DNA from: Thermoplasmata archaeon
GTDB taxonomy: Archaea; Thermoplasmatota; Thermoplasmata; Methanomassiliicoccales; Methanomethylophilaceae
Direction: 5' to 3'
DNA length: 64,000 nucleotides
Assembly (NCBI GenBank): GCA_015063285.1
Contig: SUST01000007.1
Span: 12,006-76,005, forward strand
The notes beneath the pieces were generated by a model. That model had not been told where the DNA came from. It saw nothing but the letters and a program-made list of their open reading frames with translations, and searched no databases. Below are positions 277-42,137 of the stretch, piece after piece (the stretch's first letter is position 1; each line of letters starts with the position of its first letter). A program made the position numbers and the translations under genes.

Positions 277-292
277 AGTGCTCCAGACGGGA
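277..292. repeat. Left attachment site (copy of tRNA-Glu 3' end)
   Basis: The bases agtgctccagacggga match 42063-42078 exactly. Beyond the 16 bases the similarity to the tRNA T-arm breaks up. This is the displaced tRNA 3' end expected at the far border of an element that integrated into the tRNA gene. Confidence 0.8.
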
Positions 293-4697: not shown

Positions 4698-4858
4698 CGG
4701 AAATCGTCGTTCCCGTGACAACGGTATGGGACGTCATGGCCAATGCTCTTGATGACCCGGATTTCTGGTTGATCTCCGTCCTTGGACTTCTAACGATAGC
4801 GCTGATGATCAGACGCCGTATCGGAAGGAGGTGCTGCTCTTGCCCCTCCCTGCGATAA
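4694..4858 (+). CDS. Tiny single-span membrane protein
   Basis: 54 residues, ATG at 4694 overlapping the preceding TGA. One membrane helix (FWLISVLGLLTIALMI) is followed by a very basic segment (RRRIGRRCC). The size and the charge after the helix resemble small coat or membrane proteins of filamentous or membrane-vesicle viruses. That comparison is inference. Confidence 0.6.
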   Translation: MTEIVVPVTTVWDVMANALDDPDFWLISVLGLLTIALMIRRRIGRRCCSCPSLR

Positions 4859-5079
4859 TCCCCGCGATAGCCTCGATGCTCGCCTGGATCGGCATAGATC
4901 TGGGCATTTCCTGGCTTACACAGGACGATTCCGGCGTGGAGTACGTCTCCGGGCTGGATTTCCAGTCCTTCCTGGGGATCTACTGGCTGCCGGTTCTCCT
5001 GTATTCCCTGCTGATCCTCACTGCGGTCTACCTCGCCATTCCAAAGCAATCGAACAACGGTCGGGAGGTCCGTATCTAA
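4840..5079 (+). CDS. Small two-span membrane protein
   Basis: 79 residues from a TTG at 4840, about nine bases after GGAAGGAG; a GTG at 4831 is in frame but too close to that ribosome site. There are two hydrophobic segments (near residues 3-22 and 45-66) with a short acidic loop containing DDSGVEY between them. It overlaps the end of the previous tiny gene. No family is recognised. It belongs to the membrane-protein run of the virus-like cluster. Confidence 0.65.
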   Translation: MPLPAIIPAIASMLAWIGIDLGISWLTQDDSGVEYVSGLDFQSFLGIYWLPVLLYSLLILTAVYLAIPKQSNNGREVRI

Positions 5080-5105
5080 ACCTCCCAATCAAACGAGTTG
5101 AAAAC

Positions 5106-6566: not shown

Positions 6567-6570
6567 TAGC

Positions 6571-8352
6571 ATGGACTTCAAGCACAAGCTCATGATCGTC
6601 ATCGCCTCGGCCATCCTGCTGGCTGCCGTCACTCATATCGTCCTTGATTCGGATGATTCCAATGCAGTGGACATCGTGGAAGACGATCTCACCATAAACG
6701 TGGGCGAGACCAAGACCTTCTACTGGGTCGACGACCTCCATGAGGACTGGTGGGATCTGATCCAGGCGGCCGGTGGAAACTACTCATGCGGATTGGCTAC
6801 TAGTACCACATGGGGGACTTGGGTCCAGTCTTCAAAATACGATCTGGAACCGAATGCCAACGGTCTCGTACTTACTGCCAAATCCACATTGTCCCCGGGC
6901 AAATACTACATGCGTCTGGTCATCATGGACGAGGGAGGGGTAGATGAGCTCGAGGACCTCCTATATGGTGTCACCGTCAAGGCGGCATCCACCACCAAGT
7001 ACACCGTATCCTTCTCTGCGAGCCCATCTAGCTACGGTTCCGTCAGCAAGACCAGCGTATCCGTCGCTTCAGGCACCACATACACCGCCAACGGGAACAA
7101 GATCACGTTCAGCGACGGTCAGTCCGTGACGGCGACTCCTTCTTCCGCCACATCGTCCTACACATACTCGTTCTCCAAATGGTCCAGCACATCGGGAACG
7201 ATTACATCCGCGAAGTCGATAACCGCCAGTTTCACCAGATCGGCCCAGACCACGAACTATACCTGCTATCTATATTACGATGCGAATAACGGTTCGGGCG
7301 CACCCAGCACCCAATCCTACACCGGCACCAGTACTAGCAGTCACACCTTTACCGTATCGTCTACGCAACCATCCAGATCCGGATACACCTTCCTCGGATG
7401 GTCCACTTCGAGCTCTGCGACTTCAGCAACCTACACTGCAGGGGATTCCATATCCGTCTCATACAACGGATCCAAGACCCTGTATGCGGTATGGCAGCAG
7501 AACGTCACGAACTATCAGATCACCATCTACAAGGGTAATTGGGACAGCTTCAAGCTGCTCGGGGTTGACAACGACAAGGTCACCTCGAACAGCAAGACCT
7601 ACACCATCGCTTCCGGAACCTCCATCGACGTCGATTGGTACGGGAAGGCGACGGAGAACGGTTCCGGATCCAATTACACATACACTACCACCTACTCCTC
7701 AAGCAACTACAACATGGCCTCCTCCCTCTATGGATCGAGTCTCGGAGACTCCGTCACCGTGACCAAAAAGGCCTCCTACTATCCCGCGGTCCAGATGACA
7801 TCGGATACCGTGTACACGTACAGTTACACGGTCAAGTACAACGCCAACGGCGGTTCCGGAGCTCCCGGAAACCAAACTTATACCGATTCATCGGCAACGA
7901 AGACCATCCAGCTCTCGTCAACCACACCGACGAGATCGGGATATCAGTTCCTCGGATGGTCCAAGTCCAGTTCAGCCACCACCGCGACATACAGCGCAGG
8001 ATCCTCGTACTCCTTCGATTACGGGACCACCCAGCTGTACGCTGTTTGGAAACAGTTGACCATAATCGTATCCGGTACCCCCGACCAGTACGCCGTAGCT
8101 GGCAACTACTGGTCGTTCTCCCCGACGGTCAGCGTCAGCGGATGCTCCGTATCAATCAGCGGAGCATCATGGCTCTCGTCTACGGGAACCACGGTATCGG
8201 GAACACCCACCCAGACAGGGACCTACGACATCACCCTGACCTTCTCCAAGTCCGGATACACGTCTGCGACCAAGACCTTCACAGTCACTGTCATCTCGTC
8301 CCTCGAATTCACATCATCTCCCGCAGGAGGTGCGATCATCTATGCAATATGA
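6571..8352 (+). CDS. Secreted Ser/Thr-rich protein with two InlB-type repeats
   Basis: 593 residues from the ATG at 6571 ([17 protein letters not shown]), directly after the previous gene. A signal peptide or anchor is followed by Ser/Thr/Tyr-rich beta repeats. Two Listeria-Bacteroides repeats end in LYAVWQQN and LYAVWKQ, and an Ig-like C-terminal module ends in [14 protein letters not shown]. That tail matches the end of the upstream protein. The last bases contain the ATG of the next gene (8342), so the three spike-like genes are translationally linked. Confidence 0.75.
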
Positions 8353-9688
8353 TATCAGAACAACAGCAATCATAATCGCCGCCATCTTCATGGCGGTGCC
8401 TTTCGCGATCAGCGAAGCGAATGCCGACGAGGCATACGACAAGGACTACGGGGAGTTCTACTCATACACCCTGCAGTTCGTATTCGACGGATCCGACGCC
8501 CAGACCATCGACTGGGACTTCGGCGACGGTTCCGAGCACAGCACGGAATGGAACCCCAGGCACACATATGCCACAAAGGGAACATACTACATAACCCAAA
8601 CAACCAGCAACCCCAAGGGATCCACGGTCGAGGTTTACAAGGTGCAGATCATGGGATTCCCGGTCATCACCTTTGAATCCAACGGCGGTTCGGCGGTAGC
8701 TCAAATAGAGCAGACCGCCTACAACGTACCCGCAGCGAAACCAGCAGACCCTACCAAAGCGAACAACTCCTTCGACGGTTGGTTCTACGAACCTGAGTTC
8801 ACCAACCCCGTCAATTGGGATGCAGGCGTCAACAGGTCTATGACCCTCTATGCCAAATGGATCCCGGTCTCCGCTCCTGTAACCACATACACCGTGACGT
8901 TCGACAGCAACGGGGGATCCTCCGTCCCCTCCCAGACGGTCCAGTCCGGTTCCACCGCCACGGTCCCCGTCAAACCCACAAGATCGGGATTCGTCTTCAG
9001 CGAATGGAAGCTCAACGGTCAGGCCTACGACTTCGCTACACCGGTCACATCGAACATCACTCTCGTAGCTTCATGGACAGAGAACGTTCAGCCCGTCATC
9101 ACCCACCACATCACATTCGATGTCGATGGTGGTTCGTCAGCAGTAGCTGCAAGGACCGTCAACAACGGTTCTTTCCTCACATTACCGTCCTATGACGGCT
9201 CTAAGCAGGGATTCACCTTCGGCGGCTGGACCTACAGCAATCTGACCTACCAGCCCGGGAACACCGTCATCGTATCAAGCGACATGACCTTCAAGGCCTT
9301 GTGGATCTCTGATGCCCCCACACCCGTCAATCAGAACGTCACGATAACGTTCAATGTCGACGGTGGTTCGATATCGGTGTCAGCTCAGACAGTCAAATCC
9401 GGAACTTCCGTTACTCTGCCAAGTTACAACGGGGTGAAAGAAGGCCACAGGTTCGGAGGCTGGGCCATCGGTATGCTCACCTACCAGCCCGGTTCCTCTG
9501 TCACCCTTTCCGGTGACGTCACGGCGAAGGCAATCTGGATCCAGAATTCTGCTGACGAGCCCGAACAGAAGGATTTCGGTACATTCCTGAAGGATTTCGT
9601 CACCGAACCTTTCGGAGTGGCCGTTCTGATCATGCTGGTCCTTGGACTCATAGTGCTGGCGATGGCCATCCGTTCGAGGAGGTTCTGA
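8342..9688 (+). CDS. Membrane-anchored surface protein: PKD domain plus InlB-type repeats
   Basis: 448 residues from the ATG at 8342, which lies inside the end of the previous gene. Signal peptide ([17 protein letters not shown]), PKD domain with [15 protein letters not shown], then four Listeria-Bacteroides repeats with the FxxNGG/VDGG...GW...W spacing. A C-terminal membrane helix ([18 protein letters not shown]) ends in RSRRF. It has the anchored ectodomain topology of an archaeal virus spike or a cell-surface adhesin. Confidence 0.8.
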
Positions 9689-12697: not shown

Positions 12698-14203
12698 ATG
12701 TCCACACTGGAGCAGTTCGATGCAGTACACGATGAGCACATGCTCATACAACTCCAGCGCCAGATGGAGAAGGAGATGATCATGGGCATGGCTGAACAGG
12801 CCGCCCTCAAGGCCCATCCTGTCGTCGATTATGTCAAACACTTACCAGTGGAGTCCGCTTTGTATCCTGCCATAGAGTACCTTAGACTTGCAAGCGCAAC
12901 AGGGGACTCGATTTCCGACATCTACGATCAAATTCAGGAGGGAACGACCTGTTTCATGGACAGGTCAGGAGACCCCGTCTTTTACAGACCCGAATACCAC
13001 AGGTTCATCGAATGGCAGATGCCCGCCCACGATATCGAACGTCCGAAGCGTTGCAGATGCGGTTTCATCCGCGGTAGCTCAGGAGGCATGGTCTACAGCA
13101 TGTGCCCCGATCATCCGGAGCATTTCTGCAAGGGTAAGCGCAACCACTGCTGGGATCTCGGCTGTCCTGATTGCATGAACGACACCGCTCTCGACCACGG
13201 TGTCGAGGTGGAAAAACAACTGATGAAGTACAAGACCCTCCTGCAAAAGCAGGACCTCCCGTGCTCCGACGTAGGGCATTGGGTCGTCTCCCCACCGCAG
13301 GAGATGGCGAAATCCCTGATGCAATCCTATGATGAATTCAACGAGCTGTACAGTTACGTGTGCGACTCGCTCCAGAAGTACGGTGCCCACGCAGGGGTCA
13401 CCATATTCCATCCCTGGAGACAGCAGCAGAAGGGATGGGTGGCATCGCCGCACTTCCATTCGCTGCTGTTCGGTCGTATAAACACCAAGCAGTTCCTGAA
13501 AGACAACCCGGATTGGATTATCAAGAAGGTCCATCCCAAACAGAAGATACGTTCCATCAGACACACCGCGGCCTATCTCTTCACCCACATGGGCCTCGGA
13601 CTCTACGAGAAGGATCCGGACGATATCGATTGGGACCTGGACATCATCGATTATCTGATTCCCGGGATTAAATCCAAGAAGGCGAAGTACTCGGAGCAGG
13701 ATTACGAGCTTCTGAGCGAAGGAAAGGGACGCATGGCAGGGGACCTCTCCCAGATCGACTGGGAGGAATGGACCATTCAGCGCCTCACCGGTACCATGAA
13801 GATCAGGTACTGGGGCGGTGTAGCACGCAACAAGTTCAGATTGGTCGGCTTCGACAGACAGTACAAGATCAGAGTCTGCAAGGAATGCGGCGAGATCCTC
13901 AGGGTCTACGACGGTCCGAACGACTCCATCGGCAGTTACGTGAGATACATCCAGGACAACTACGTCTACTGCTTCGCGCATCAGCTCTCATTGGTCAACT
14001 CCACGTATCTGAAGTACAAAGCGAAGCTCAAGGATGCCGACCTCTCCCTGTCGGACTTTGCGTCCATGATACCGTTCGCAGTCTCAACTCTGGAATTCAT
14101 GCCCCAGAACAAGGACCTGGTAATGAAGGATCCCTTCGAGGAACCCGACGAGTTCTTCCTCAGGAGACAGAAGGAGGATGACTTCGAGACGTACTCTCAG
14201 TGA
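12698..14203 (+). CDS. HUH-type rolling-circle replication initiator (Rep)
   Basis: 501 residues from the ATG at 12698. The HUH metal-binding motif is H252-F-H254 in SPHFHSLLFG, preceded by GVTIFHPW. A candidate nicking tyrosine is Y293 in HTAAYLFTHMGLG, resembling the YLL(S/T)H motif I associate with haloarchaeal plasmid and pleolipovirus Reps. Cys-rich segments (RCRCGF, CPDHPEHFC, CWDLGCPDC) around residues 113-165 and a late CKECGE suggest zinc binding. No helicase domain is seen. Likely role: nicking the origin just upstream to start replication of the element. The GC-rich repeats directly before the gene fit this. Confidence 0.85.
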   Translation: MSTLEQFDAVHDEHMLIQLQRQMEKEMIMGMAEQAALKAHPVVDYVKHLPVESALYPAIEYLRLASATGDSISDIYDQIQEGTTCFMDRSGDPVFYRPEYHRFIEWQMPAHDIERPKRCRCGFIRGSSGGMVYSMCPDHPEHFCKGKRNHCWDLGCPDCMNDTALDHGVEVEKQLMKYKTLLQKQDLPCSDVGHWVVSPPQEMAKSLMQSYDEFNELYSYVCDSLQKYGAHAGVTIFHPWRQQQKGWVASPHFHSLLFGRINTKQFLKDNPDWIIKKVHPKQKIRSIRHTAAYLFTHMGLGLYEKDPDDIDWDLDIIDYLIPGIKSKKAKYSEQDYELLSEGKGRMAGDLSQIDWEEWTIQRLTGTMKIRYWGGVARNKFRLVGFDRQYKIRVCKECGEILRVYDGPNDSIGSYVRYIQDNYVYCFAHQLSLVNSTYLKYKAKLKDADLSLSDFASMIPFAVSTLEFMPQNKDLVMKDPFEEPDEFFLRRQKEDDFETYSQ

Positions 14204-24561: not shown

Positions 24562-27036
24562 TCACTCCTGGTCTGACTGCGGGCCTATCATTTCCACCGG
24601 TCCGTCGGACCAAACCGCACGCAGTTCCATAGAGTGTGTTATCTTCTCAGGAGGACTTGGATTCCATCCGATGATCCTCATCCCATGGGAACCTTCGGGA
24701 GATTCCGCCTCGATCTCAGGAATCACGATCTCCTGCTTCCTACGCATCCTGATCGATATCGACGAATCGGATTCGCGCTTCCAGCCCTCCGGGACGGAAA
24801 CGATCCTGCCGCCCTCGTTGGTCAACGTCAGCTTGAATCTCTTCCATAGGAAGAACCAAATCAGGAACAGAATCAGAACTATGACCGCGATAATCAGGAT
24901 CCAGCACCAGACACAGCAATCGTCTGCAGGAGTCTTTCCCTCATCGTAGCTCACGGCGTAATGACTGAAGTGCATCACACCGAAAACAACGCCTTCTCCT
25001 TCGACGTATTCGAACTGCACCGATACCCTGGGCTCTACATCGAGATACCATACAGACAGCCTGTCTGGGGTCCAGCCTTCCTTCATCTGATAGTCTATCG
25101 TGACGGTGACCGCCGTGGGGAAGGTCATCGCGACCTTGACACCGTTCTTCAGAATGTATATGTCATAAACTTTGACGTTGTCGAGACCGCTTACATCGAT
25201 GTCCGTACTCTCGGATTCCTTCACCTCTACCGGTAGGATTACGAACTCTAGATCGTCATCGCATCCGATGGCATCCAATACCTCCCAAGGGAAGTACAGC
25301 GTGACATCCCCTTCTATGATGGTCAGCGATCCGTTGCCGTCAACGATAGCGGCAAGCAGTTCGGACGGTACCGACACAGGCGAGTCTGTAGGGATGACGA
25401 CATGCGGATCCCTTCCAGTCTGCAGCAACGCATCGATGAACGGCAGGACCACATCCAATTGGTCCTCGGTCACCATGTGTGAAGTTCCTGGAACGATGGT
25501 CACGGGGTTGGACGGGATCATCTCTCCCGCATCGTCCAAATCATAAACGAGGATTACCGAGCCTCCGTCCGAGGTGTATATCGTCTCAATCACCTCTTTC
25601 TCGGATGACGACGCGACATGTATAGAGACGGAACCAAGCTTGTTACCGTGACTGTCGTATGCGGTGATCACCGCATTCCCCGTCCCCACGGCGGTGACGA
25701 TGCCGTCCTCGACGATGGCAACTGTCTCGTCCGAGGACGTCCAGACTATACCTGGTGCGGCCTCCGGCGGATCCACCGTATACGGTATCGTCACCGAGGA
25801 CCCTTCAGGTATGGAGATCACGTCTACATCCATGCTGAAATCCTTCACATCAGGTATCGCAGTTTCCTTCCACACCGCGAACAAGGTCTTGGAGGGGAAG
25901 GATGATGTCAATGTTATCTTTGAACCGGGTTGATATACAGGTAAAGATCCTGTATCACCCCATCCCTGGAAATCGTATCCCGCACGGGTCGGGATCCCTG
26001 ATGGTATCGTGAATGTATACGATGATGATGAGGATGTCTTTGTAATGGTGTCGGGAACTCCTTCGCCCCCGTTCGCATCGAATTTGAGTGTGTAAGTGTA
26101 ATAGGACGGCTCGGGTCCCGGCCCGGGGTTCGTTTCCCAGACGGCATATATCGTTTTTGAGGGCGATGATGCTTGCAGCGTGATGCTGCCTCCGGGCAAG
26201 TGTGCCACGGCACCTGTCGCTGTATCGGACCATCCTTTGAAAATATATCCCGAGCGCACAGGTTTGCTCCCAGAAATCGTGAACATATGTGAGCTCTCCG
26301 TCCCGGTGTACGTCTGTGTATCGGGTTCGCCGGTACCACCATTGGCATCGTACGCAAGGGTGTACGTCACCGAAGAGGACGACCATCTGACCTCGACCTC
26401 GGTATCGACAATGATCGTTTTCGACGATATCTTCGAACCTTCGGAGTACCATCCGTCCAAGACCTTTCCTTCGGGAGGCTCCGCTGTGAATGTATATAGA
26501 ACAGTATCATCGAATGTCACGTAAAGGATATCGTCATCTGCCGTGAGGACACTTCCTGAGGGTATGTAGAATATACCCGTTCCGGGACTTATCGAGCCTT
26601 CCGAAGGTTCATCCACCGTAAAGGAGACGATACCTACGGCCAGTTTGGATTGCACGATGAGTTCCATCGAGGTGTTCAAGACCTTGACCAGGTATATCCC
26701 GTCCGAGAGTGTCGTGCCTGCGATGTCCAGATATGACAGCGACTCGTCGAGACTGATGACGGAAGATTGACCGATCAATGAGTCCTCGTCCGTGTACAAT
26801 TGGATGAACACGGAGCGATGCATCTCGGATTGTTCCGGTTCTCCGGAATATGACGTCTGCAGCGAGATGATATCGTCGTCGTAATACTGCAGGGTCAGTG
26901 TGTAATCGCCGGAAGGGCTCTCCGAATCATATCCTATGCCTATCATTTGTGATGCAGAGGCCTGTCCTAACGGTGCGCAGCATACGATAAGCACATAGGC
27001 CAGCAGCAAGGTACAGAGGGTTGATCTCATCATCAT
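24562..27036 (-). CDS. Anchored surface protein: InlB repeats, Big2 domain, late membrane helix
   Basis: 824 residues. Signal peptide (TLCTLLLAYVLIVC), a beta-rich N-domain, two clear Listeria-Bacteroides repeats (YDANGGTGEPDTQTYTG and FDANGGEGVPDTI), and a Big2-like Ig domain (PEGSSVTIPYTVDPPE ... VTAVGTGNAVITAYD). A large uncharacterised domain follows, then a Cys/Trp-rich membrane helix near residues 705-728. The ~95 residues after the helix again resemble a Flg_new fragment (LRAVWSDG), unexpected on the inner side. It is likely cell-surface or virion-surface exposed, and forms one leftward operon with the DGR. Confidence 0.75.
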   Translation of the reverse strand: MMMRSTLCTLLLAYVLIVCCAPLGQASASQMIGIGYDSESPSGDYTLTLQYYDDDIISLQTSYSGEPEQSEMHRSVFIQLYTDEDSLIGQSSVISLDESLSYLDIAGTTLSDGIYLVKVLNTSMELIVQSKLAVGIVSFTVDEPSEGSISPGTGIFYIPSGSVLTADDDILYVTFDDTVLYTFTAEPPEGKVLDGWYSEGSKISSKTIIVDTEVEVRWSSSSVTYTLAYDANGGTGEPDTQTYTGTESSHMFTISGSKPVRSGYIFKGWSDTATGAVAHLPGGSITLQASSPSKTIYAVWETNPGPGPEPSYYTYTLKFDANGGEGVPDTITKTSSSSSYTFTIPSGIPTRAGYDFQGWGDTGSLPVYQPGSKITLTSSFPSKTLFAVWKETAIPDVKDFSMDVDVISIPEGSSVTIPYTVDPPEAAPGIVWTSSDETVAIVEDGIVTAVGTGNAVITAYDSHGNKLGSVSIHVASSSEKEVIETIYTSDGGSVILVYDLDDAGEMIPSNPVTIVPGTSHMVTEDQLDVVLPFIDALLQTGRDPHVVIPTDSPVSVPSELLAAIVDGNGSLTIIEGDVTLYFPWEVLDAIGCDDDLEFVILPVEVKESESTDIDVSGLDNVKVYDIYILKNGVKVAMTFPTAVTVTIDYQMKEGWTPDRLSVWYLDVEPRVSVQFEYVEGEGVVFGVMHFSHYAVSYDEGKTPADDCCVWCWILIIAVIVLILFLIWFFLWKRFKLTLTNEGGRIVSVPEGWKRESDSSISIRMRRKQEIVIPEIEAESPEGSHGMRIIGWNPSPPEKITHSMELRAVWSDGPVEMIGPQSDQE

Positions 27037-27067
27037 ATCACGTCAAGGAAGACAGCGGTCCTGTGTC

Positions 27068-27958
27068 TCAGTGCCTTCTCCTGAAGATCAGAACGATCGC
27101 CAAGATGACTACGATCAGCACTGCGATTATGACTGCGATCAGTGTCATCGGTAACGGATCGGACCATTCTGCCGTGAAAGCAACATCCCTCGTGACCTTG
27201 TACTCATCTCCGGAGCCGAATGATTCATCTCCCAGCTTCCAACCGGAGAACTCCTTGCCGTCGGGTGCGGTGAAGGTACAATCCGGGAGCTTCACTGTGT
27301 CCCCATAGAATGCCTTGACCGATTGCATGGTCCCGGAACCCTCTCCAGGGAGGAAGTTCAGCGTGTACTCTGACGCCTGCCATAGGGCCGTGACGGTCAT
27401 GTTGTCCCATACGGTAAGCTCGTCGCCAGGGCTGAAAGTATGCTCCGGATCCGAACTCGCGGACCATCCGATGAAGTATTTCCCTGCTGGAGCCGTATAT
27501 GTGCATCTGGGCACGATCAGGGTCCCGCCGGGTTCCACGCCCATAGGGGACATGAATCCGGTACCGTCCCCGGCGGAGAAGGTCACGGTGAGGCACGACC
27601 CCACGGTCAGCTCGCACTCCGCAATCTTTTCCTTTGTCTCCGCCAGCGTCACCATGACTAGATATGTCTCGGACACCAGAGGGGAAACGGTTATGTTGAA
27701 GTTCTCCGAAGGCGGAAAATGCTCGACATCCTGATGGTCGCTGACTGACATCAGATATACGGAGATGTCTTTGGAGGGCACCTTGGTCAGATGGACATAC
27801 AGGATGCCCATACCGGCCTCGATGCCCTCCGAGGAATAGATCACATCGATCCCATCCCCGTGTCCCTCGCCCCCGACAGCCCCGTCAGAGACGGGCGCGG
27901 CCAAAGGCACCGCCAGAAGCGTTGCCAGGAGCAGGAGCGGTATGATCTTTCCTCTCAC
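27068..27958 (-). CDS. Anchored surface protein with InlB-type repeats
   Basis: 296 residues. Signal peptide (IIPLLLLATLLAVPLAAP), an N-terminal beta domain related in layout to the neighbouring 824-residue protein, two Listeria-Bacteroides repeats (FSAGDGTGFMSPMGV ... VTALWQAS and FLPGEGSGTMQSVKA ... FTAEWSDP), a C-terminal membrane helix and the basic end FRRRH. Type I anchored topology. It lies between two other secreted proteins of the DGR operon. Confidence 0.75.
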   Translation of the reverse strand: MRGKIIPLLLLATLLAVPLAAPVSDGAVGGEGHGDGIDVIYSSEGIEAGMGILYVHLTKVPSKDISVYLMSVSDHQDVEHFPPSENFNITVSPLVSETYLVMVTLAETKEKIAECELTVGSCLTVTFSAGDGTGFMSPMGVEPGGTLIVPRCTYTAPAGKYFIGWSASSDPEHTFSPGDELTVWDNMTVTALWQASEYTLNFLPGEGSGTMQSVKAFYGDTVKLPDCTFTAPDGKEFSGWKLGDESFGSGDEYKVTRDVAFTAEWSDPLPMTLIAVIIAVLIVVILAIVLIFRRRH

Positions 27959-27967
27959 CCTATCACC

Positions 27968-29536
27968 TCAGGCGATGAGTCCCCAGGGGGTCTCGATAAC
28001 TGTACCGTCTGCCGTGGAGAATCCGTTGGAATCCCAAATACCCTGTGCGGCGTAGATGTAGTAGTTGTCAGGCATGACGAGCATCAGGTCGAACATCTGG
28101 TTCGCCGCAGTCAGAGTCATGATACCTTTGGTGTAGCTGGTGTTGTATGTATCGAGCTTGTTGTTGTCGAGAGCACCATCCACATATGCGTTGTAGTTGG
28201 TCGCCTTGGCAAATGTGTTGTATGTCGATATGGACCCGTATGTGCGAACACTGTCATTAGCATTGATCAGATAGTATGTACCGTCGATCTTGATCTGCGA
28301 TGAAGCGGTGGTCTTGTAGTCGAACAGGTCCAGGGACAGCGAAGCCTTTCCATAGGTATTGTTCTTCACATAGTCGAGGGCGAAATCGTATCCGGAGGAA
28401 TCGATCGTCGTGGATACAGCTGCGGTCACCACGAGCCAGGTGTCCTGCCTCAGACCGGAAATCTTGTATATACCGTTGGCAAGGGTGGTCAGCGTGTATT
28501 CCGTTCCATTGGTCAGAGGGCTGGACTTCGCTGTTGCATTGGCTTCTGTAGCATATGCTACGATTGTGTAAGTGTATGCATTGTTGGAATCGTCAGAGAA
28601 CTGCTGTATCCTGAGCACTCCGAAGGAATCACAAGATATAGTGTCGGTAACTGATGCGGAAGCAACCTGCGTTGCCTGCAGAGTTCCATTAAGAGCAAGG
28701 TATGCGTTGGATGCAGTATATGATGCAGACGCTGCACCTTGGCTTTGGATCAGCACATCGTAGGAGGCGATGTCATAGACTGCCCACAAGACTATTCCAT
28801 CGGCCTGTGTAAATCCGCTGGCATCGTCGAGAGCATAGATGATCTCCTCAATAGTGTATGTGTTGACAGGGTCGAGGATAACATCGCTGCTGCTGGGCTC
28901 TGCCCATCCGGCAAGAGTATAGAGGTATTTGTTGTCATCAACAAGATTGGTTGCGTCGATGCTGGATCTGAGATCCTGAGCGGTGTTTCTGTCCGATAGG
29001 GTCTGAGCAGCGATAGAAGCTCCCTCAATAGATGTTGTAGCCCCCCTGAGGTTGACGGCGGTGGCGAAATCGCCTGTCTGTCCTGACTTGAGGGTCAGGG
29101 CAAGTGCCGAAGTGGAGCACACCATGGTGGCCTGTGCCAACTGGGTAACACCAGTGACCTCGAGCAAGGTGATCGTAAGGTTGGCCCCATTGGTGACGAG
29201 AGCGGTACCGCCCATGTCAGTACCGGAGACGTCCAGATAGATCTTGCCGTTGACGGCAGCAACCTCGTTGACGATTGCGGGTGTGGTACTCGATGCTGGA
29301 GCCAACTTGACCTGATAGAGATTGTACTGAGCTACGGTCGTCATATCGTTGAGGTCCAACATCAGGACCTTATCCTCGTAGAGAACGGCTCTCATTCCTT
29401 TGGTCGTGTCTTTGATGTATGCGACGGGCTGATAATCTCCTGTTGCAGCGTCCGACTGGTCGGACGGCATGAGGAACGCCAGCCCCGCGAAGGCCATGGC
29501 CAGTACGGCCATGACCACTATTGCTTTTGTCTTCAT
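27968..29536 (-). CDS. Secreted protein sharing a C-terminal motif with the DGR target
   Basis: 522 residues with a signal peptide (VVMAVLAMAFAGLAFLMP). The body is Ala/Thr/Asn-rich and beta-predicted, with no InlB repeats and no C-terminal anchor. A segment near the end, GTYYLINANDSVRTYGSIS, parallels GVYYTTAGDGIRTYGSIG of the upstream DGR target protein, so the two share a terminal domain. It is likely a partner or scaffold at the same surface. The ribosome site AGAGAGG lies before the ATG. Confidence 0.7.
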   Translation of the reverse strand: MKTKAIVVMAVLAMAFAGLAFLMPSDQSDAATGDYQPVAYIKDTTKGMRAVLYEDKVLMLDLNDMTTVAQYNLYQVKLAPASSTTPAIVNEVAAVNGKIYLDVSGTDMGGTALVTNGANLTITLLEVTGVTQLAQATMVCSTSALALTLKSGQTGDFATAVNLRGATTSIEGASIAAQTLSDRNTAQDLRSSIDATNLVDDNKYLYTLAGWAEPSSSDVILDPVNTYTIEEIIYALDDASGFTQADGIVLWAVYDIASYDVLIQSQGAASASYTASNAYLALNGTLQATQVASASVTDTISCDSFGVLRIQQFSDDSNNAYTYTIVAYATEANATAKSSPLTNGTEYTLTTLANGIYKISGLRQDTWLVVTAAVSTTIDSSGYDFALDYVKNNTYGKASLSLDLFDYKTTASSQIKIDGTYYLINANDSVRTYGSISTYNTFAKATNYNAYVDGALDNNKLDTYNTSYTKGIMTLTAANQMFDLMLVMPDNYYIYAAQGIWDSNGFSTADGTVIETPWGLIA

Positions 29537-29613: not shown

Positions 29614-32235
29614 TCATAACGCGGGAAGTCCGTTCAGCCTGTCGCAGGTCACGGTGTTCTCTCCATTCAGGGTGTACGTGTATGTGGCGTACACGCAGTA
29701 GATCGACTTTGTGGAGATGTTCGGATTCCAGCTGACCTTGGCGGTACCTGCGGTAACCGACTGGGTAAGCGACAGCGTACCGATGGAACCGTACGTACGG
29801 ATGCCGTCACCTGCCGTGGTATAGTACACACCCTGGAGGGCGAGGGTCCCGGACAGAAGACCACTGGAGTTAGCAGCTTCCAGAACCACGAGGGCACCTG
29901 AGTTCCCGTTTGTCAGGGCTGCGATCCTGAAGCTACCTATTCCAGCGTCGGCCGATTCTTCGAATTTGGCGTACAGCGTTATGGCTAAGGTGGATCCCGT
30001 GGGTGTGTAGTACGAGTTGGCGGGACCTACGTAGGATGTGGTCTCGGCATCTGAATACCATCCTTGGAATTCCATGCCAGAGACTGGCATCACATCAGGC
30101 AGCATGACGCTGTAACCCTTGTCCACGGCCACTGATGTGCTCCGCGAGGCCGATTCGTAGAATATCACCGAATACTGGCTTCCGCCCACGATGAAATATG
30201 CCGTAATGCTGGTGACAGAACTCAGGGATCCGGTGGACATCTCGTATGATAATTGGTCCTTGAAGACGTCGTAGCTGAACCCTGATTCCGGTATGGCGAC
30301 TATGCATGTGTATGCCGTTGACCCCAGGATCGTATCCGATATCGTCATGGCCCGTCCCACGACAGTGTATGTGGCCGATGTGGTCACATAGATAGGCGTC
30401 GAGGTATACGCTCCCGAGATGGATACGGAACCTTTGCTAGCATTTTCCGATGCCACTGCGATGGAATATACCGATTCGAATGCAGGGGTTATCGTCACAT
30501 CCCCGGAGGGCATGGAGAAGGTGCTGGTGGTTAGGGTCTTGGTAAGGAATGTCAATGATTCGGACGATGTACCATAGACGCCGGTGAGGGAGCTGAGCCT
30601 GTAGCTGGTGCTGGTCGGGGTCGCGGTTATCGTGATCGTTTGACCAGCGACGGACTCGGAACTGCTCGATGAAGCGCTCCCGCCTTCGGCGGAATTCACC
30701 GTTACGGTGTACTCGGGGACGGCCGCATCGGCCGTCATTACATAGGCCAGGCGGGCACCACGACGGTCGGGCGAAGAGCTCACAGCGTAGGAGTACCAGG
30801 CGGACAGCCCGCCCCTGGAGCTGTCGGCGTAGGAGCCACCGACGATGAGGCAACCTACCTGTGCATCCGAAGTCCAAGCATCGTCATTCACCCCCGAACC
30901 GTCCGAAGCGGGTGTGACGCTCGTACCACTACTGGCAGAAGGCATGCCCCAGACTTCCGGATCTGTATACAGTCCTGTGATCTTCGTTTGCGAATAACTT
31001 CCAGTCTTGCCGATTACGGTCTTTCCCGTCGTTGTCTGAGCAGACGTAGAGAGAGCGGTCGGGGACAGATAGTTGTTGGTGTACACTTCATTGTTAGTAT
31101 TTACCACAACATCATCGACATTCTCCCACAGCGAACCCCACGCATTCTCGAGAAGAAGTGATACCGAATCTGTTGTCGCTGACGTCGATGTGGTGACCAG
31201 CCATTGTTGTTTGGAATCATTCAGTGCCGTTCCGGTGGCATTGGGCGCTGATCCGGAGGACTTACCGGCTCCTATCGCGTATTGAGAATCCATTTGATCC
31301 ATTATCGTTATGGACATAAGCTTGTACAGCGTCCATCCATAGTAGTTCCATAGACCGTATATCCCGACCTTGTAGGAAGATGTGGGGTCTTGAACCACGC
31401 TCGAGTTGTTCCCCTGTGCGGCAGTCCTGAAGGCCGCGATGGTGGTGTTGTTCGTCGGGGTCTTGCCGGTCTGCGAGAGCAGGGATGTCGATGTATCCTT
31501 GTACGCCTCGTAGTATCCCAATGCGATATATGGGTATGTGGTGGTGTTCCCTTCCGAGTTGTCCCAGTCCTTGCCACCGGAAGATGCGAACATATGCGCG
31601 TATGCCACCATCTCCGAGGATGTCACAGAAGATATGTATTCACCGTCCGTGAATGCGTGACCGCTCTTGGAGGAATCGAAGAAGTCAGGATTGTTGCTCA
31701 TGAACGTATAGTTGTATGTCGTCGTTCCGTTGCTTGCGGTTATGGAATACCAATACACCGTAGGAATGACCAGCATGATATTGTAAATGCTCGATGTGTA
31801 GGTCGTACCGCCTATGGTCTTCTGGAGATCGTATGGATCCAGCACGTAGGCGATCTTCCCGATATCATTGGATATCCTCCTCTCTTTGGCATCATCTGTC
31901 GTGTTACTGGTGGTGTTTATCGCTGCATAGAAACAATTGAATGGGCCCAAACCGTCTGTGAAGGTCCAGAATGAATTGACGCCGGGCCTATCACCGGAGT
32001 AAACCTTCGACTCATATACCGAACCCGTCCACACCTCAACATCCGCTACAGTCATACCTGTGGAGGATACCTTCAGGACATAGCCGTAATCGCTTCCTGC
32101 AGGAACCGTGTGCATGGCCTCTGTCGCATCCGATTCCGATACCGGTATGATCGCTACAGAGGAGGCCATCATCAGCACGACCGCAAAGGTCGCGAAGAGG
32201 ACTGTTCTCTTCTTTTCATCTCTTCTCATTCTCAT
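29614..32235 (-). CDS. DGR target protein: secreted, C-type-lectin-like variable domain, internal VR
   Basis: 873 residues. The ATG at 32235 overlaps the RT stop (ATGA). Signal peptide (TVLFATFAVVLMMASSVAI). Residues ~130-500 are a Ser/Thr/Asn/Tyr-rich domain with LLLENAWGSLWENVDD, recalling the C-type-lectin/formylglycine-enzyme fold of known DGR targets. It ends in the variable repeat (residues 461-498, GCLIVGG...RRGARLAY). After VR come InlB-like modules (FQGWYSDAET, LYAKFEES) and a terminal domain shared with the next protein. No membrane anchor is seen. VR sits mid-protein, whereas most DGR targets carry it at the C-terminus. Likely role: a hypervariable ligand-binding surface protein. 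Confidence 0.88.
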   Translation of the reverse strand: MRMRRDEKKRTVLFATFAVVLMMASSVAIIPVSESDATEAMHTVPAGSDYGYVLKVSSTGMTVADVEVWTGSVYESKVYSGDRPGVNSFWTFTDGLGPFNCFYAAINTTSNTTDDAKERRISNDIGKIAYVLDPYDLQKTIGGTTYTSSIYNIMLVIPTVYWYSITASNGTTTYNYTFMSNNPDFFDSSKSGHAFTDGEYISSVTSSEMVAYAHMFASSGGKDWDNSEGNTTTYPYIALGYYEAYKDTSTSLLSQTGKTPTNNTTIAAFRTAAQGNNSSVVQDPTSSYKVGIYGLWNYYGWTLYKLMSITIMDQMDSQYAIGAGKSSGSAPNATGTALNDSKQQWLVTTSTSATTDSVSLLLENAWGSLWENVDDVVVNTNNEVYTNNYLSPTALSTSAQTTTGKTVIGKTGSYSQTKITGLYTDPEVWGMPSASSGTSVTPASDGSGVNDDAWTSDAQVGCLIVGGSYADSSRGGLSAWYSYAVSSSPDRRGARLAYVMTADAAVPEYTVTVNSAEGGSASSSSSESVAGQTITITATPTSTSYRLSSLTGVYGTSSESLTFLTKTLTTSTFSMPSGDVTITPAFESVYSIAVASENASKGSVSISGAYTSTPIYVTTSATYTVVGRAMTISDTILGSTAYTCIVAIPESGFSYDVFKDQLSYEMSTGSLSSVTSITAYFIVGGSQYSVIFYESASRSTSVAVDKGYSVMLPDVMPVSGMEFQGWYSDAETTSYVGPANSYYTPTGSTLAITLYAKFEESADAGIGSFRIAALTNGNSGALVVLEAANSSGLLSGTLALQGVYYTTAGDGIRTYGSIGTLSLTQSVTAGTAKVSWNPNISTKSIYCVYATYTYTLNGENTVTCDRLNGLPAL
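30742..30855 (-). repeat. DGR variable repeat (VR)
   Basis: 114 bases aligned to TR at 33443-33559. On the coding strand 16 positions differ and each is A in TR: for example AAC to TCC, GCC, GAC or TAC, AAT to TCT or CGT, AAC to CCC, AGA to AGG, GAC to GGC. One AAC codon is missing in VR. The only other change is the G/C at the third base of the Ala codon next to the final Tyr. The A-free 3' end (CGTGGTGCCCGCCTGGC) is shared and is a fit for the initiation-of-homing site. Confidence 0.93.
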
Positions 32236-33278
32236 TGTGTCACTCCCTTCTTCTCTCTTCTTCTGTCCTCTATGAGGACGGGTACGATTGTAACGGATCT
32301 CAGATGTTTACCATCGCAATGTTTCAATACACCGCTATAAGAATTCAGGACCCCAAGGTCTCTATCATCCAAGCGGTAATCCGGATCCTTCGATTGTCTA
32401 TTGGATATCCTTTTGACGGATCCTTTCATCCTTTTCTTAGTCGGCTTTTTAAGCAGTATGTGATCGGAGAATATCCTGTATCCCAGGAAAGGAATCCCTC
32501 TGGAATCTATAGGGAAAATCTGATAATTCCCTTTGAGTTCAAGACCAATGGCCGATAATTCGTCCTTTATGATCCCTAGTATCCTTCTCAACCATTTCTT
32601 GGTATAACCAAGGATGCATCTGTCATCCATGAAGCTCACAAGATAGTGCACATGATGCCTTTCCTTCAGCTTGTGGTCCATGTCCGACAGATACAAGTTC
32701 GCCAGCATCGGCGAATACCTGTTCCCTATGGGGATCCCCGGATACGAGTATTCGTCAATCAGCTTGAACATAAGGTCTAGGAATCTCCTGTCCTTGAACA
32801 CACGGAGCATCTTCTTCTTGAGAATCTCCTTGTCGATGGATGCGAAGAACTTCTTCACATCAACAATCAGCGCGTATCTTATCTTCGCGTCTTTCTGAAT
32901 ATACGAATGGACTTTCTTCACAGCATCATGGTATCCCATCCCCGGACGGGAGCCATAGGACTGATCGATGAGCTTGTTGTTCAAAGGCTCTTCTGCTACC
33001 AGACAGATGGCCCAATGCAGGATACGGTCTGGATTCAGCGGCAGATCGGCCACGAAACGCTGTTTACCTCTTTCAAGGATGTTGAACATCCTGTATTCCG
33101 ATGACTTGTAAGTACCGTCGATCAAAGAGTCCCTGAGTTTCTTCAGATTGTTCTCGGAATCCTCTAAGAATTCCTGGACCTCCGTTCTGTTCTTTCTCGT
33201 CGAACAGGCTTTCTTAGCCGCTTCGCGGAGATTGTCCATCGAGACGATCCTGTCAAAAAGATCCCCGATACGAATCAA
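32232..33278 (-). CDS. DGR reverse transcriptase
   Basis: 348 residues from a TTG at 33278 (overlapping the preceding ORF stop); MDNLREAAKK 13 residues later is an alternative start. RT motifs in order: palm strand ALIVDVKKFFASID, GIPIGNRYSPMLANLYL in place of the QG motif, catalytic FMDD at 216-219 in LVSFMDDRCILGY, then GIPFLGYRIF. No maturase, endonuclease or retron msr/msd features are seen. It copies the adjacent TR with adenine-specific errors into VR of the downstream gene. No Avd-like accessory gene is evident nearby. Confidence 0.92.
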   Translation of the reverse strand: MIRIGDLFDRIVSMDNLREAAKKACSTRKNRTEVQEFLEDSENNLKKLRDSLIDGTYKSSEYRMFNILERGKQRFVADLPLNPDRILHWAICLVAEEPLNNKLIDQSYGSRPGMGYHDAVKKVHSYIQKDAKIRYALIVDVKKFFASIDKEILKKKMLRVFKDRRFLDLMFKLIDEYSYPGIPIGNRYSPMLANLYLSDMDHKLKERHHVHYLVSFMDDRCILGYTKKWLRRILGIIKDELSAIGLELKGNYQIFPIDSRGIPFLGYRIFSDHILLKKPTKKRMKGSVKRISNRQSKDPDYRLDDRDLGVLNSYSGVLKHCDGKHLRSVTIVPVLIEDRRREKKGVTQ

Positions 33279-33781
33279 AGGCGTACCCCCCTAACAGACC
33301 TATGAACCTCGAACCTGTTCTTCGGCTGCGGACCGTTTCCCCACCTACCAAACAAGCGACTATGGTTTTTCTTTATCTTTTGCCAAGTGGCAAGGTCCAA
33401 TCCGATAGGGATGTCATGTTCATTGTATTGAGTCTTCGAGGGATACGCCAGGCGGGCACCACGATTGTCGTTCGAATTGCTCACAGCGTTGTTGGAGTTC
33501 CAGGCGGACAGCCCGTCTCTGGAGCTGTTGTTGTAGTTGCCACCGACGATGAGGCAATCCGGACCCAAACCCGTGGGCACGGATTCGGAAGGACCTGAGC
33601 CGTCACTGCCAGTGTTACGATAAAACCCTATCGGAGTCTTTAAGGATGCTCCGCCCCCCCCCCCCTCATACAAGTTCGGGGAGATCTTTGCGAATCTACC
33701 GTCGGCTGTCAGAGCGACATCACTGCAAGGAGGGCAGTCCCCCCCCCCCATAAAGGGTACGGCAAACTCGCGAACATCCAT
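33275..33781 (-). CDS. ORF containing the template repeat and two poly-G tracts
   Basis: An open frame of 168 residues; residues ~75-113 are the TR translation (DCLIVGGNYNNSSRDG ... RGARLAY) in the same frame as VR. Upstream in the ORF are two G runs (coding strand) of 12 and 11, read as Gly stretches. It overlaps the RT start by four bases. It may be a decayed target-gene copy serving as the template, or an expressed leader. Slippage at the G runs would change the frame, so its coding status is doubtful. Confidence 0.4.
   Translation of the reverse strand: MDVREFAVPFMGGGDCPPCSDVALTADGRFAKISPNLYEGGGGGASLKTPIGFYRNTGSDGSGPSESVPTGLGPDCLIVGGNYNNSSRDGLSAWNSNNAVSNSNDNRGARLAYPSKTQYNEHDIPIGLDLATWQKIKKNHSRLFGRWGNGPQPKNRFEVHRSVRGVRL
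33443..33559 (-). repeat. DGR template repeat (TR)
   Basis: 117 bases, 165 bases upstream of the RT start on the same strand. It is rich in AAC/AAT codons (13 Asn/Asp-type codons in 39), the codon type that gives most amino-acid options when A is randomised. It aligns with VR at 30742-30855 with A-only substitutions. Confidence 0.93.
33654..33665. repeat. Homopolymer of 12 C (G on coding strand)
   Basis: An uninterrupted run upstream of TR within the TR-containing ORF. Such a run is prone to slipped-strand length change, so it may toggle the frame leading into TR and RT. Confidence 0.85.
33739..33749. repeat. Homopolymer of 11 C (G on coding strand)
   Basis: A second mononucleotide run 74 bases from the first, in the same ORF. 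Two long poly-G tracts so close together are exceptional in this window. Confidence 0.85.
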
Positions 33782-35963: not shown

Positions 35964-36283
35964 CTTCTATTCAACCCTGGGCTTTTCTTCGAAACCCAAG
36001 GCAGAGTGACCGAAGACCTGCGGAGATGTGATTTCAGCTCAAACAGGAAGAAGGGAGCGAAAGAACAATCCCGCAGGGCAAGATGGACGAAGGGTGGAGA
36101 AGAAAAAGCACGGGGTCATCTTCTTTTACAGTCATTATCAGTCCTCTCATATTCCCTTATCACTTTATCACATCAAGGAAAAGTCAATGGTTTTCCAAAC
36201 AAACAGTTCCAAACCCTTTCAGATTCACCTGGACGGATCGGTTTCATTTACTACGATTCCGATCATCTTGGCTATCGAGCGGT

Positions 36284-36295
36284 CGTTATTATATA
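36284..36295 (+). promoter_or_regulatory. TATA-like promoter of the RCC1-repeat gene
   Basis: The sequence gttattatatac lies ~150 bases before the likely ATG at 36443, in the gene-free stretch 35964-36442. It is a reasonable archaeal TATA box; the leader would be ~130 bases. Upstream of it the stretch holds only low-quality frames. Confidence 0.4.
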
Positions 36296-36442
36296 CCTTC
36301 AAATTTTAGATGGAACGTAAAGCTGACCGTTTCATATCTCCGTACGAGCCTCGCACCATCTGAGGAGTATCGGAAATCCAATCGGACAAGCATCCTGCAT
36401 GTGAAACGGTATGTACAGATAGGATCGGAGAAGTGTACTCAT

Positions 36443-38053
36443 ATGCGCTCGAGGGAATATGTGAAGGGTCACAAGGTCAAGAACATCACGATAGCGATAG
36501 CTGTGCTGATGTTGATGACCATGGCCGTATCGATAGTCGATACCGAAGAGACCGAAGGGGCCAGCGTTCCTCTTCCCATACAATCCGGCGTATATTCCAG
36601 CAGTGAGACCACATGGTTACTGACCAAGGACGGTAGACTGTACGGGTGCGGCCACAACCAATATGGGCAGCAGGGTAGCGGTGACACATCCGATGTGAAT
36701 GTGTTCACCCAGCGCATGCCCGGGCTCACCATCGCAAGCGTTTATTGTTCCAATAAAACAACGTGGTTCATCACCACCGAAGGGAAACTGTACGGATGCG
36801 GATATGGAAATGATGGACAGCAGGGTAGCGGTGACACATCCGATGTGAATGTGTTCACCCAGCGCATGCCCGGGCTCACCATCGCAAGCGTTTATTGTTC
36901 CAATAAAACAACGTGGTTCATCACCACCGAAGGGAAACTGTACGGATGCGGATCCGATGATGCTGGGCAGCAGGGTAATGGTAAGAACGATGTCAAGGAG
37001 TCAACGTTCACCCAGAAATTCTATGATCCCGATGCGAAGAACAATCCGATATCCGGGATAGTAAGCTTCTCGTGTTCCTCAGACACGACATGGTTCGTCA
37101 CGACCGATGGGTATCTGTACGGATGCGGATCAAACGGGTTTGGACAGCAGGGAGACAACGATGATCTTGGACGGTGGGTAGAGATGTTCACCAGAAAATC
37201 CTATAATCCCTATAGCGGCGTGTTTAATACGATCAAGAATGCAAAGAGTGTTGCTTGTTCCTCTTACACGACATGGTGCGTGACGACCGACGGGGTATTG
37301 TACGGTTGCGGTGACAATCAGGGTACCGCGACTAGTTCGAGCAAGAATAGGTTCGCGCAATGGTATTATGATTCAGAAGGCAAAAATCCGATAGAGAATG
37401 TTGAAAGTGTCTATTGCTCCAAGTCTACGACATGGATCATCACGACAGACGGGAAGCTGTACGGGTGCGGAGATGGAACTTATGGACAGCAGGGTAACGG
37501 AAATACGGGCCCTGTGAAGAGATTCACCCCGCGCATGCCTGATCTCACCGTTAAGAGCGTTTACTGCTCCAACCGTGCTACCTGGTTCGTCACAACGGAT
37601 GGGAAGCTGTACGGGTGCGGATATGGAATATGTGGACAGCAGGGTAGCGGTGGCACATCCGATGTGAATGTGTTCACTCAGCGCATGCCCGATCTCACCA
37701 TCGCAAGTGTCGCCAGTTCTAATTATACTACATGGTTCGTCACATCTGACGGGGAACTGTACGGGTGCGGATCCGGATACTATGGACAGCAAGGCAACGG
37801 TGGAACAGACAATGTCAACGTCTTCACCAGCAAGGAGCGTGTGTCCCCCACTCCGTCCAATTCAACACCAGAACCCACCCCTGGACCTATTCCTGAACCG
37901 AACCTTGTTGAGAATGGGGACACGACGATCTCGGATGACGGGTCCGAAGTAAGCGGAAGTGACATCGACAGCATGATCCCGATCGCAGCGGGAATCGCGA
38001 TAGCAGCAATCGTCATAATAGGGGCAGCAGCCGTTTACCTCAGGAGACATTGA
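36443..38053 (+). CDS. Secreted, membrane-anchored RCC1-repeat (beta-propeller) protein
   Basis: 536 residues from the ATG at 36443 (MRSREYVKGHKVKNITIAIA); the longer open frame starting at 36083 has no ribosome site and non-coding composition. A signal segment (ITIAIAVLMLMTMAVSIV) is followed by eight or so RCC1-like repeats with the hallmark LYGCGxNxxGQQGxG and TTWFVTxDG, a Pro/Thr stalk (PEPTPGPIPEPN) and a C-terminal membrane helix (AAGIAIAAIVIIGAAAVYL). RCC1 repeats usually form a seven-bladed propeller; here it would be displayed outside the cell. Two adjacent repeats are nearly identical in DNA, so copy number is changing. Confidence 0.8.
   Translation: MRSREYVKGHKVKNITIAIAVLMLMTMAVSIVDTEETEGASVPLPIQSGVYSSSETTWLLTKDGRLYGCGHNQYGQQGSGDTSDVNVFTQRMPGLTIASVYCSNKTTWFITTEGKLYGCGYGNDGQQGSGDTSDVNVFTQRMPGLTIASVYCSNKTTWFITTEGKLYGCGSDDAGQQGNGKNDVKESTFTQKFYDPDAKNNPISGIVSFSCSSDTTWFVTTDGYLYGCGSNGFGQQGDNDDLGRWVEMFTRKSYNPYSGVFNTIKNAKSVACSSYTTWCVTTDGVLYGCGDNQGTATSSSKNRFAQWYYDSEGKNPIENVESVYCSKSTTWIITTDGKLYGCGDGTYGQQGNGNTGPVKRFTPRMPDLTVKSVYCSNRATWFVTTDGKLYGCGYGICGQQGSGGTSDVNVFTQRMPDLTIASVASSNYTTWFVTSDGELYGCGSGYYGQQGNGGTDNVNVFTSKERVSPTPSNSTPEPTPGPIPEPNLVENGDTTISDDGSEVSGSDIDSMIPIAAGIAIAAIVIIGAAAVYLRRH
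36668..36803 (+). repeat. Tandem RCC1 repeat unit, copy 1
   Basis: 136 bases identical to 36818-36953, with a 150-base period (50 codons, one propeller blade). The identity points to a very recent in-frame duplication or ongoing gene conversion. Confidence 0.9.
36818..36953 (+). repeat. Tandem RCC1 repeat unit, copy 2
   Basis: Exact second copy of 36668-36803. The other blades of the protein are clearly diverged from this pair. Confidence 0.9.
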
Positions 38054-40670: not shown

Positions 40671-40849
40671 TGTATCTTTATTTAACCTTGATTGGTAAGT
40701 ATTCCAGCATTTTAAAGAGCTCATACATCCCCGATATCGGCGATTTGCACTTTTGCTAATCTATTTATACTCTCATAGTTTTATGTTGTTTGCAATTCTA
40801 TGAGGCGAAGTCCTTTAGGATTGGAACGAAAGAAAAAGGAGAGAAAGAT

Positions 40850-41788
40850 ATGAGCGTTTATCCGTTCAGGGACAAGATAGGAGAATACCTCCTGACCAGG
40901 AAAGGCGTGATCTCGGATGTGACCTGGGCCAACCAGGACCGCAGACTGAGACGGATGGACCGCGAGTTGATCGCCTTGAAGGAGCAGGGTATGATAAGTA
41001 CCATGGCTCCTTCGAAGATGACTCCGGAGGACGTCAAGACCTTCATCCTCTTCCGCAAGGCGAAGAAGGTGGGGGCCTCGGACCTAAGCCACGACATCAC
41101 ACTCCTGGAGCAGTTCCTCACCTATTCGGGGAACTACGCGGTGCAGGTATGCCTCCAGAAGAACACGGGCCTCAAGCCGAAGGACAACTCCCATCAGCGT
41201 CTGGACCCGCTTCCGATGGAGATCTACCGCACCATCCTGGCCAGGTCCAAGGAGATAGACTACGGGGACTTCCCGACCGTCCGCGCCTATGCGATGGTTC
41301 TGCTGTACATAGGCACCGGGGCCAGGAACAAGGAGATCCGCTTCTGCAGGAGGGACGAGCTCAACGACAAGTCGTGGCTGATCCATTTCACCCACGTCAA
41401 GGGCGAGGACACCTACGGGAGACCGAGGAACGTCCCCATCCCCGAGGAGATCCGTCCCATGATGTCCGAGTACCTGTACCACAGGGACGTATGGCTCGCG
41501 GCACACGACAAGACCTCCGAGATGCTGTTCTTCCAGCTCGGCGGCGAGTGCTCGACGCTGTCGTCGAACTCCATCAGGAAGATCAAACAGAAGGTGGAGG
41601 ATCAGATCGGACACAAGTTCGAGCTCCGCGACTGCCGCAGGGCATTCGGTCAGACATACAAGGACCGCGGTCTAGAGATGGAGAAGATCTCCAGGCTCAT
41701 GGGTCACAGCTCCACACGCGTCACCGAGCTGTACTACTGCGGCGTATCGGAGAACGACGCGATAGACGGTGCAAGGAAGCTCTGGTGA
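40850..41788 (+). CDS. int: Tyrosine recombinase (integrase)
   Basis: 312 residues from the ATG at 40850, after AAAGGAGAG; an upstream TTG at 40790 is in frame but lies in the presumed promoter. N-terminal SAM-like domain, then the catalytic domain: Arg in YIGTGARNKEIRFCRRDEL, Lys in VKGEDTYGRPRNVPI, RDCRRAFGQ at the HxxR position, LMGHSSTRVTELYYCG with the nucleophilic Tyr. The usual His of HxxR appears to be Arg. It ends 277 bases from tRNA-Glu, which carries the attachment site. It catalyses insertion and excision of the element. Confidence 0.88.
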   Translation: MSVYPFRDKIGEYLLTRKGVISDVTWANQDRRLRRMDRELIALKEQGMISTMAPSKMTPEDVKTFILFRKAKKVGASDLSHDITLLEQFLTYSGNYAVQVCLQKNTGLKPKDNSHQRLDPLPMEIYRTILARSKEIDYGDFPTVRAYAMVLLYIGTGARNKEIRFCRRDELNDKSWLIHFTHVKGEDTYGRPRNVPIPEEIRPMMSEYLYHRDVWLAAHDKTSEMLFFQLGGECSTLSSNSIRKIKQKVEDQIGHKFELRDCRRAFGQTYKDRGLEMEKISRLMGHSSTRVTELYYCGVSENDAIDGARKLW

Positions 41789-42062: not shown

Positions 42063-42078
42063 AGTGCTCCAGACGGGA
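42063..42078. repeat. Right attachment site (within tRNA-Glu)
   Basis: Exact copy of 277-292. It covers the last 14 bases of the tRNA-Glu gene (acceptor strand and discriminator) and two bases beyond. Recombination here leaves the tRNA intact. Confidence 0.85.
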
Positions 42079-42137
42079 TTCGAACCCGTGTGTCAGCCTC
42101 GAAAGGGCTGAATGATTGGCCGCTACACTACTGGAGC
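42065..42137 (-). tRNA. tRNA-Glu (anticodon UUC)
   Basis: Read on the minus strand it begins GCTCCAG and ends CTGGAGC plus A, a 7-bp acceptor stem. The anticodon stem/loop is CAGCC-CTTTCGA-GGCTG, giving anticodon TTC, and the T-loop is GTTCGAATC. No CCA is encoded. A TATA box lies just upstream. Its 3' end is the integration site of the element to the left. Confidence 0.95.

Follow-up and report, generated by a model that had tools for sequence, protein, structure and literature searches.

The window, the whole 64,000-nucleotide stretch of DNA analysed here, very probably carries a diversity-generating retroelement (DGR) as cargo on a tRNA-Glu-integrated element of about 41.8 kb in a methanogenic archaeon. 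The DGR would diversify a secreted, C-type-lectin-like target protein, with an IMH and an in-frame hairpin directing retrohoming. The locus had been read as a DGR in the preliminary description, and this reading is now borne out by the adenine bias between the template repeat (TR) and the variable repeat (VR), the phylogeny of the reverse transcriptase (RT), the homology of the target domain and the turnover of the VR between two species. The DGR comprises the following features.

29614–32235, minus strand: target gene, 873 aa, with an N-terminal signal segment, a predicted C-type-lectin-like VR domain, and Flg_new_2 and Flg_new repeats
30718–30736, minus strand: in-frame hairpin GACGGCCG-ATG-CGGCCGTC, 5 nt past the VR, the proposed retrohoming target hairpin
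30742–30855, minus strand: VR, 114 nt, internal, target codons 461–498
30742–30762, minus strand: candidate IMH at the VR 3' end, CTGGCC versus the IMH* CTGGCG in the TR (limits approximate, drawn from BPP-1)
32232–33278, minus strand: DGR-clade RT, 348 aa, TTG start, motif 4 PIGNRYSP, catalytic FMDD
33275–33781, minus strand: 168-aa open frame holding the TR, with a 4-nt overlap with the RT start and G tracts in its 5' part
33279–33442, minus strand: TR-to-RT spacer, 164 nt
33300–33397, minus strand: structured part of the TR RNA spacer, a candidate RT-17 RNA (Rfam RF03020)
33443–33559, minus strand: TR, 117 nt, with 28 adenines and 18 variable codons

Adenine-specific differences between the template and variable repeats

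Realignment confirmed the coordinates previously given for the two repeats. The TR (33559..33443) and the VR (30855..30742), read on the minus strand, align over 114 columns, and the VR lacks one AAC codon, as already described. The alignment contains 17 substitutions, 16 of which are located at TR adenines, with C, G and T all occurring as products (hypergeometric P about 6e-12). The earlier count of 16 adenine substitutions therefore stands, while the statement that all substitutions fall on TR adenines does not, as it overlooked a silent G>C change (GCG>GCC) at 33446/30745, four bases from the 3' end of the repeat. Ten of the 18 variable codons in the TR are AAC or AAT, which are unable to become stops, and one AGA codon could become a stop. 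A search of the whole source genome revealed no third TR/VR copy beyond these two. The VR 3' end, CTGGCC, is constant throughout the clade of loci with an internal VR (described below), and the TR differs there, as is the case for IMH and IMH*.

G tracts of about 11 nucleotides are present at 33652–33665 and 33740–33750, within the TR-holding frame. At these tracts, a 1-nt length difference from the copy in a second species (L007) shifts the frame of this ORF, possibly reflecting phase variation or assembly noise.

Rewriting of the VR between two species

The same element is carried by a contig of 'Thermoplasmata archaeon isolate SIG4', another species of the same genus (L007, taken as the same locus as G009:C27). 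The two copies show no differences in the TR (0/117) or in the TR–RT spacer (0/164), and their RT genes differ at 10 of 1047 positions (99% identity). The VR differs at 17 sites, every one of which is a TR adenine (P about 4e-14). The second copy thus displays the pattern that the preliminary description had proposed to look for, a VR variable at A sites beside a constant TR. The target gene around the VR is a mosaic between the species, in which some 50-bp stretches contain up to 22 differences and others none, and the stretch 30851–30900, at the 5' edge of the VR, contains a single difference; therefore, the VR pattern does not reflect general divergence. Since the TR is identical and the VR differs at 17 TR-adenine sites, this comparison, although a small population sample of two genomes, shows that the VR was rewritten after the two copies parted; the hypermutation cassette is apparently active. 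The two species are 97% identical from the tRNA inward and 84% identical in the chromosome adjoining the element, indicating that the element probably moved recently between them.

Reverse transcriptase and TR RNA spacer

The ORF at 32232–33278 lies between the TR and the VR, where a DGR-type RT with FMDD had been reported. In the RT tree, a split with 100/100 support separates the DGR RTs, including that of the window, from RTs of group II-like and other kinds, and the phylogenetic check proposed earlier thereby places the window RT within the DGR clade. The RT matches phrog_1423 (1.6e-94). Among the structures in the PDB, 8ub7 (3.9e-30), the BPP-1 enzyme (bRT), gave the best match, and the best group II RT reached 7e-18. 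Motif 4 of 8ub7, GIPIGSLTSQLFANVYGG, is identical to that of the Bordetella phage BMP-1 locus L061. At the positions equivalent to R74 and I181 of BPP-1, which are fidelity determinants, the window RT keeps R and I, and the Q187 equivalent is P. Its motif 4 (IGNRYSP) retains the IG part and reads SP in place of the canonical SQ. The RT gene has kept an uninterrupted, conserved frame. A phmmer search with two Avd query proteins, which a distant Avd could escape, detected no Avd in 17 loci.

The structured part of the spacer gave a full-length match to the RT-17 RNA with 38.9 bits versus a gathering score of 40.4 (E 9.9e-6). Three relatives (L002, L005 and L052) score above the gathering threshold, and five other internal-VR loci gave no match. 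The spacer of BPP-1 adopts a fold, brings in the RT–Avd complex and primes cDNA synthesis (PMC12875486). By analogy, the window spacer may play the same role. A YCTT-loop hairpin in the spacer was considered as a novelty and dropped, as it sits in the region matched by the RT-17 RNA.

Two DGR layouts in one methanogen family

Of the 147 genomes available for the order, 11 contain strong matches to the RT, and all 11 belong to a single family. DGRs in hosts of this kind are thus less rare than the preliminary description had implied. An adenine-biased TR/VR pair is present in all 15 surveyed loci, including the window. One layout, found in seven genome loci and the virus vir215, has the order target–TR–RT, a C-terminal VR and the SQ motif (SH in L051); 3–7 residues follow the VR where the gene end is readable, L049 being cut by the contig end. 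The other, found in eight loci including the window, has the order TR–RT–target, a VR inside the gene and SP in RT motif 4, with 276–376 residues after the VR in the complete genes. These eight internal-VR loci form one RT clade with a support of 100/99. Pooled over the clade, the TR and VR differ at 158 of 255 A sites versus 17 of 813 non-A sites.

In three loci of this clade, L048, L050 and L054, the RT reads YADN at the YxDD motif, and its frame of about 500 aa includes the TR in frame. Where the TRs of two species in this branch agree, their VRs show 14 differences, 13 of them at adenines. This bias suggests that the second catalytic aspartate may be dispensable. In a previous survey, all of the 155 DGR RTs keep both aspartates and the SQ varies in 15 (PMC3521204). 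Help from a canonical DGR RT for the YADN RT in G028 is not evident, because the other DGR-type RT there (L051, 7294–8313) reads YLDN; this RT has SH in motif 4, and its TR/VR differences are 15/15 at A. The RT of L047 contains an in-frame stop near its end. Two C-terminal-VR loci, L052 (G004) and L053 (G006), are located in single-contig genomes of the genus, with 18/18 and 21/21 mismatches at TR A, respectively.

A VR at the target C-terminus is near-universal in DGRs, and not defining (PMC8144416). The proposal that an internal VR is unique to the archaeal clade was dropped, as the viral contigs L075–L077 also have internal VRs. The TR–RT–target order was likewise dropped as a new feature, since the order varies and a TR overlapping the RT frame is known (PMC3521204). 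Scans of viral contigs gave no matches to the VR core pattern or to the target protein. A limited search of the open literature (PubMed Central) found no description of DGRs of cellular Methanomassiliicoccales, and one may exist. DGRs, internal VRs and archaeal-virus DGRs are already known, and their combination here looks new.

The target protein

The VR domains of the internal-VR and C-terminal-VR targets align with each other, and the sole PDB match to their family profile is 5VF4 (6.9e-6). This structure is TaqVP, the DGR variable protein of T. aquaticus, with an FGE-type C-type-lectin fold (PMC6328139). The profile match suggests that the VR domain of the window target is C-type-lectin-like and holds the variable face. 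AlphaFold predictions of the target with 2 and 7 sequences yielded a mean pLDDT of 27–28, too low for use. In the window, 375 residues are located downstream of the VR. The internal-VR targets share a hydrophobic N-terminus followed by the VR domain and then a stalk of Flg_new and PKD repeats, and those of L050, L054, L056 and L057 contain a hydrophobic C-terminal segment followed by arginines. The 873-aa window target has no such C-terminal membrane segment and is thus probably secreted or held by another protein. The C-terminal-VR targets mostly begin with Ig-like repeats and possess neither a signal nor an anchor. Because the sister targets carry a C-terminal membrane segment, the protein varied by this system is most likely a binding protein of the cell surface and not a virion tail fibre. 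We infer that a diversifier originally of the tail-fibre type came to act on cell-surface proteins.

A predicted coding hairpin downstream of the VR

The hairpin that corresponds to that of the window is GGCCGCCG-ATG-CGGCGGCC in L047 and CGACGCCG-ATC-CGGCGTCG in L048, L050 and L054. Across the internal-VR loci, one and the same position thus holds an 8-bp GC stem, in three versions that differ in sequence and all pair perfectly. Among four distinct sequences, both sides have changed in 4 of the 8 pairs, and 96.9% of the hairpin cells pair, versus 21–85% in slid versions. Given the amino-acid sequence, a perfect stem would arise by chance with P 0.014–0.026 per locus. The exceptions are L056, with one mismatch, and L057, with a weaker stem. 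At the sequence level, the coding hairpin therefore appears well supported in six of the eight loci, of which the window and L045 are near-copies, so that few sequences are independent. The amino-acid motif at this site (ADA, ADP) may be held by the hairpin itself. The hairpin is absent from the window TR, and in several C-terminal-VR loci a hairpin is located after the stop codon.

In BPP-1, efficient retrohoming needs an 8-bp GC-rich hairpin just after the VR, the stem sequence of which is free (PMC3240598). The window has both an IMH/IMH* difference and a hairpin 3' of the VR, as judged from its letters. The C-terminal position of VRs has been explained by the recognition elements being intergenic and without coding constraint (PMC8144416). 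An internal VR with a coding hairpin makes this explanation directly testable.

The integrated element and its host

The element spans about 277–42088 of the window, between a tRNA-Glu gene and a repeat of the tRNA 3' end.

277–292, plus strand: 16-bp exact repeat of the tRNA-Glu 3' end, the other limit of the element
12698–14203, plus strand: putative rolling-circle (HUH-type) replication protein, 501 aa, with the HFHSLLFG motif as its sole signature
40790–41788, plus strand: tyrosine integrase (Phage_integrase), beside the tRNA-Glu
42064–42137, minus strand: tRNA-Glu, the integration site, its 3' end repeated at 277

These features agree with the tRNA-integrated element described previously. 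The archaeal, probably Methanomassiliicoccales host proposed at that time is likewise supported: the source genome encodes McrA, a near-identical locus exists in isolate SIG4, and a virus that has been recorded from Methanomassiliicoccales encodes a related RT. Life in the gut is suggested by where the family is known to occur and by records of relatives, namely a virus from a gut metagenome, rather than by the host's own metadata.

The 501-aa Rep-like protein has no match in Pfam, PHROG or the PDB. Its homologues occur in 30 of 102 family genomes, and the DGR thus seems to travel as cargo on a single member of a broader family of elements. Relatives of this protein are located at six places in the source genome (12698–14203 of the window; C2, C3, C4 and C6 of G000). 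Near the DGR, an RCC1-repeat protein (36083–38053, plus strand) has a signal and C-terminal hydrophobic segments, and secreted proteins with Flg_new, PKD and Ig-like repeats occur in runs on the element at 2424–9688 and 24562–29536.

Discussion

In the proposed mechanism, the RT would reverse-transcribe the TR RNA with its structured spacer, making errors at the adenines, and the resulting cDNA would replace the VR inside the target gene. These steps are a model, and the rewriting itself is shown by the two-species comparison. The IMH at the VR 3' end and the in-frame hairpin would direct retrohoming. The window falls in the archaeal RT clade with the VR inside the gene, where the recognition hairpin would have become coding.

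The locus might instead be an ordinary archaeal-virus DGR, with the element a provirus and the target a tail-fibre-like attachment protein. The nearest C-terminal-VR archaeal DGRs include a Methanomassiliicoccales Caudoviricetes genome in which the VR gene is annotated as a tail protein, and the target domains are homologous between the two layouts. However, the window target has an N-terminal signal, the C-terminal membrane segments of its sister targets are absent from the C-terminal-VR targets, and virion genes were not recognised among the element proteins scanned, making a provirus origin of the locus unlikely. A formerly active and now dead DGR would be consistent with SP in place of SQ, with the Avd search described above and with the in-frame stop in the RT of the L047 relative. 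Considering that 17 VR sites, all TR adenines, differ between species that share an identical TR and a 99% identical RT, and that the RT frame is open and conserved, we regard such a fossil as very unlikely. It is scarcely conceivable that the locus is a group II, retron-like or defence RT beside a drifted duplicated gene segment: drift would not restrict the changes to one base of one copy, and the RT tree, the BPP-1 match and the adenine bias all argue against it, even though the best NCBIfam model is a group II RT model, far under its cut-off (119.6 versus 300 bits), and general RT models of PADLOC match the window RT.

Beyond the apparently active DGR on an integrated element that we favour for the window, we suggest, tentatively and with nearly as much conviction as doubt, that a DGR lineage in one methanogen family changed from a viral-type attachment-protein diversifier to a cell-surface diversifier, in which the VR and hairpin are in frame and the SP and YADN RTs are still adenine-specific. 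DGRs generate protein diversity at defined targets. In the literature covered here, those of archaea come mostly from DPANN, ANME and viruses. A DGR family in methanogens, with two members in single-contig genomes (G004 and G006), offers a tractable system for determining what a methanogen varies on its surface. Possible counterparts of the varied surface are host mucosa, protozoa, bacteria or viruses. In addition, the SP and YADN RTs represent natural variants for probing the roles of the SQ motif and the second aspartate.

Comparison with known systems

The window resembles BPP-1 in the adenine-specific TR-to-VR change and in an RT whose homology extends along most of the protein and which retains R74 and I181. 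The two also share an IMH-type 3' end, an 8-bp GC hairpin just after the VR and a structured TR–RT spacer. Unlike BPP-1 (bRT, Avd, TR and mtd VR), the window has the order TR–RT–target, an internal VR, a coding hairpin, SP for SQ, no Avd found, a secreted target in place of a tail fibre, and a spacer resembling the RT-17 rather than the Phage_DGR type.

Among the archaeal relatives, vir215 (Methanomassiliicoccales), vir525 (Methanosarcinales), L046, L052 and L053 share the RT family phrog_1423 and the adenine bias with the window, and the target domains of L046, L052 and L053 are homologous to that of the window. These five differ in their target–TR–RT order, C-terminal VR and SQ motif, and their hairpin, where found, lies past the stop codon and has a TCCT loop. 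The IMG/VR contigs L075–L077 resemble the window in the TR–RT–target order and the internal VR, which is followed by 118–319 residues. They differ in that their SQ RTs form a separate clade (98/96), their target proteins are other ones, and their hairpins are weak or different. For TaqVP (5VF4), the profile match to the window target is located in the domain before the VR, and the FGE-type C-type-lectin fold would be common to both. TaqVP is a single domain with the VR at its very C-terminus, whereas the window target has repeats after the VR.
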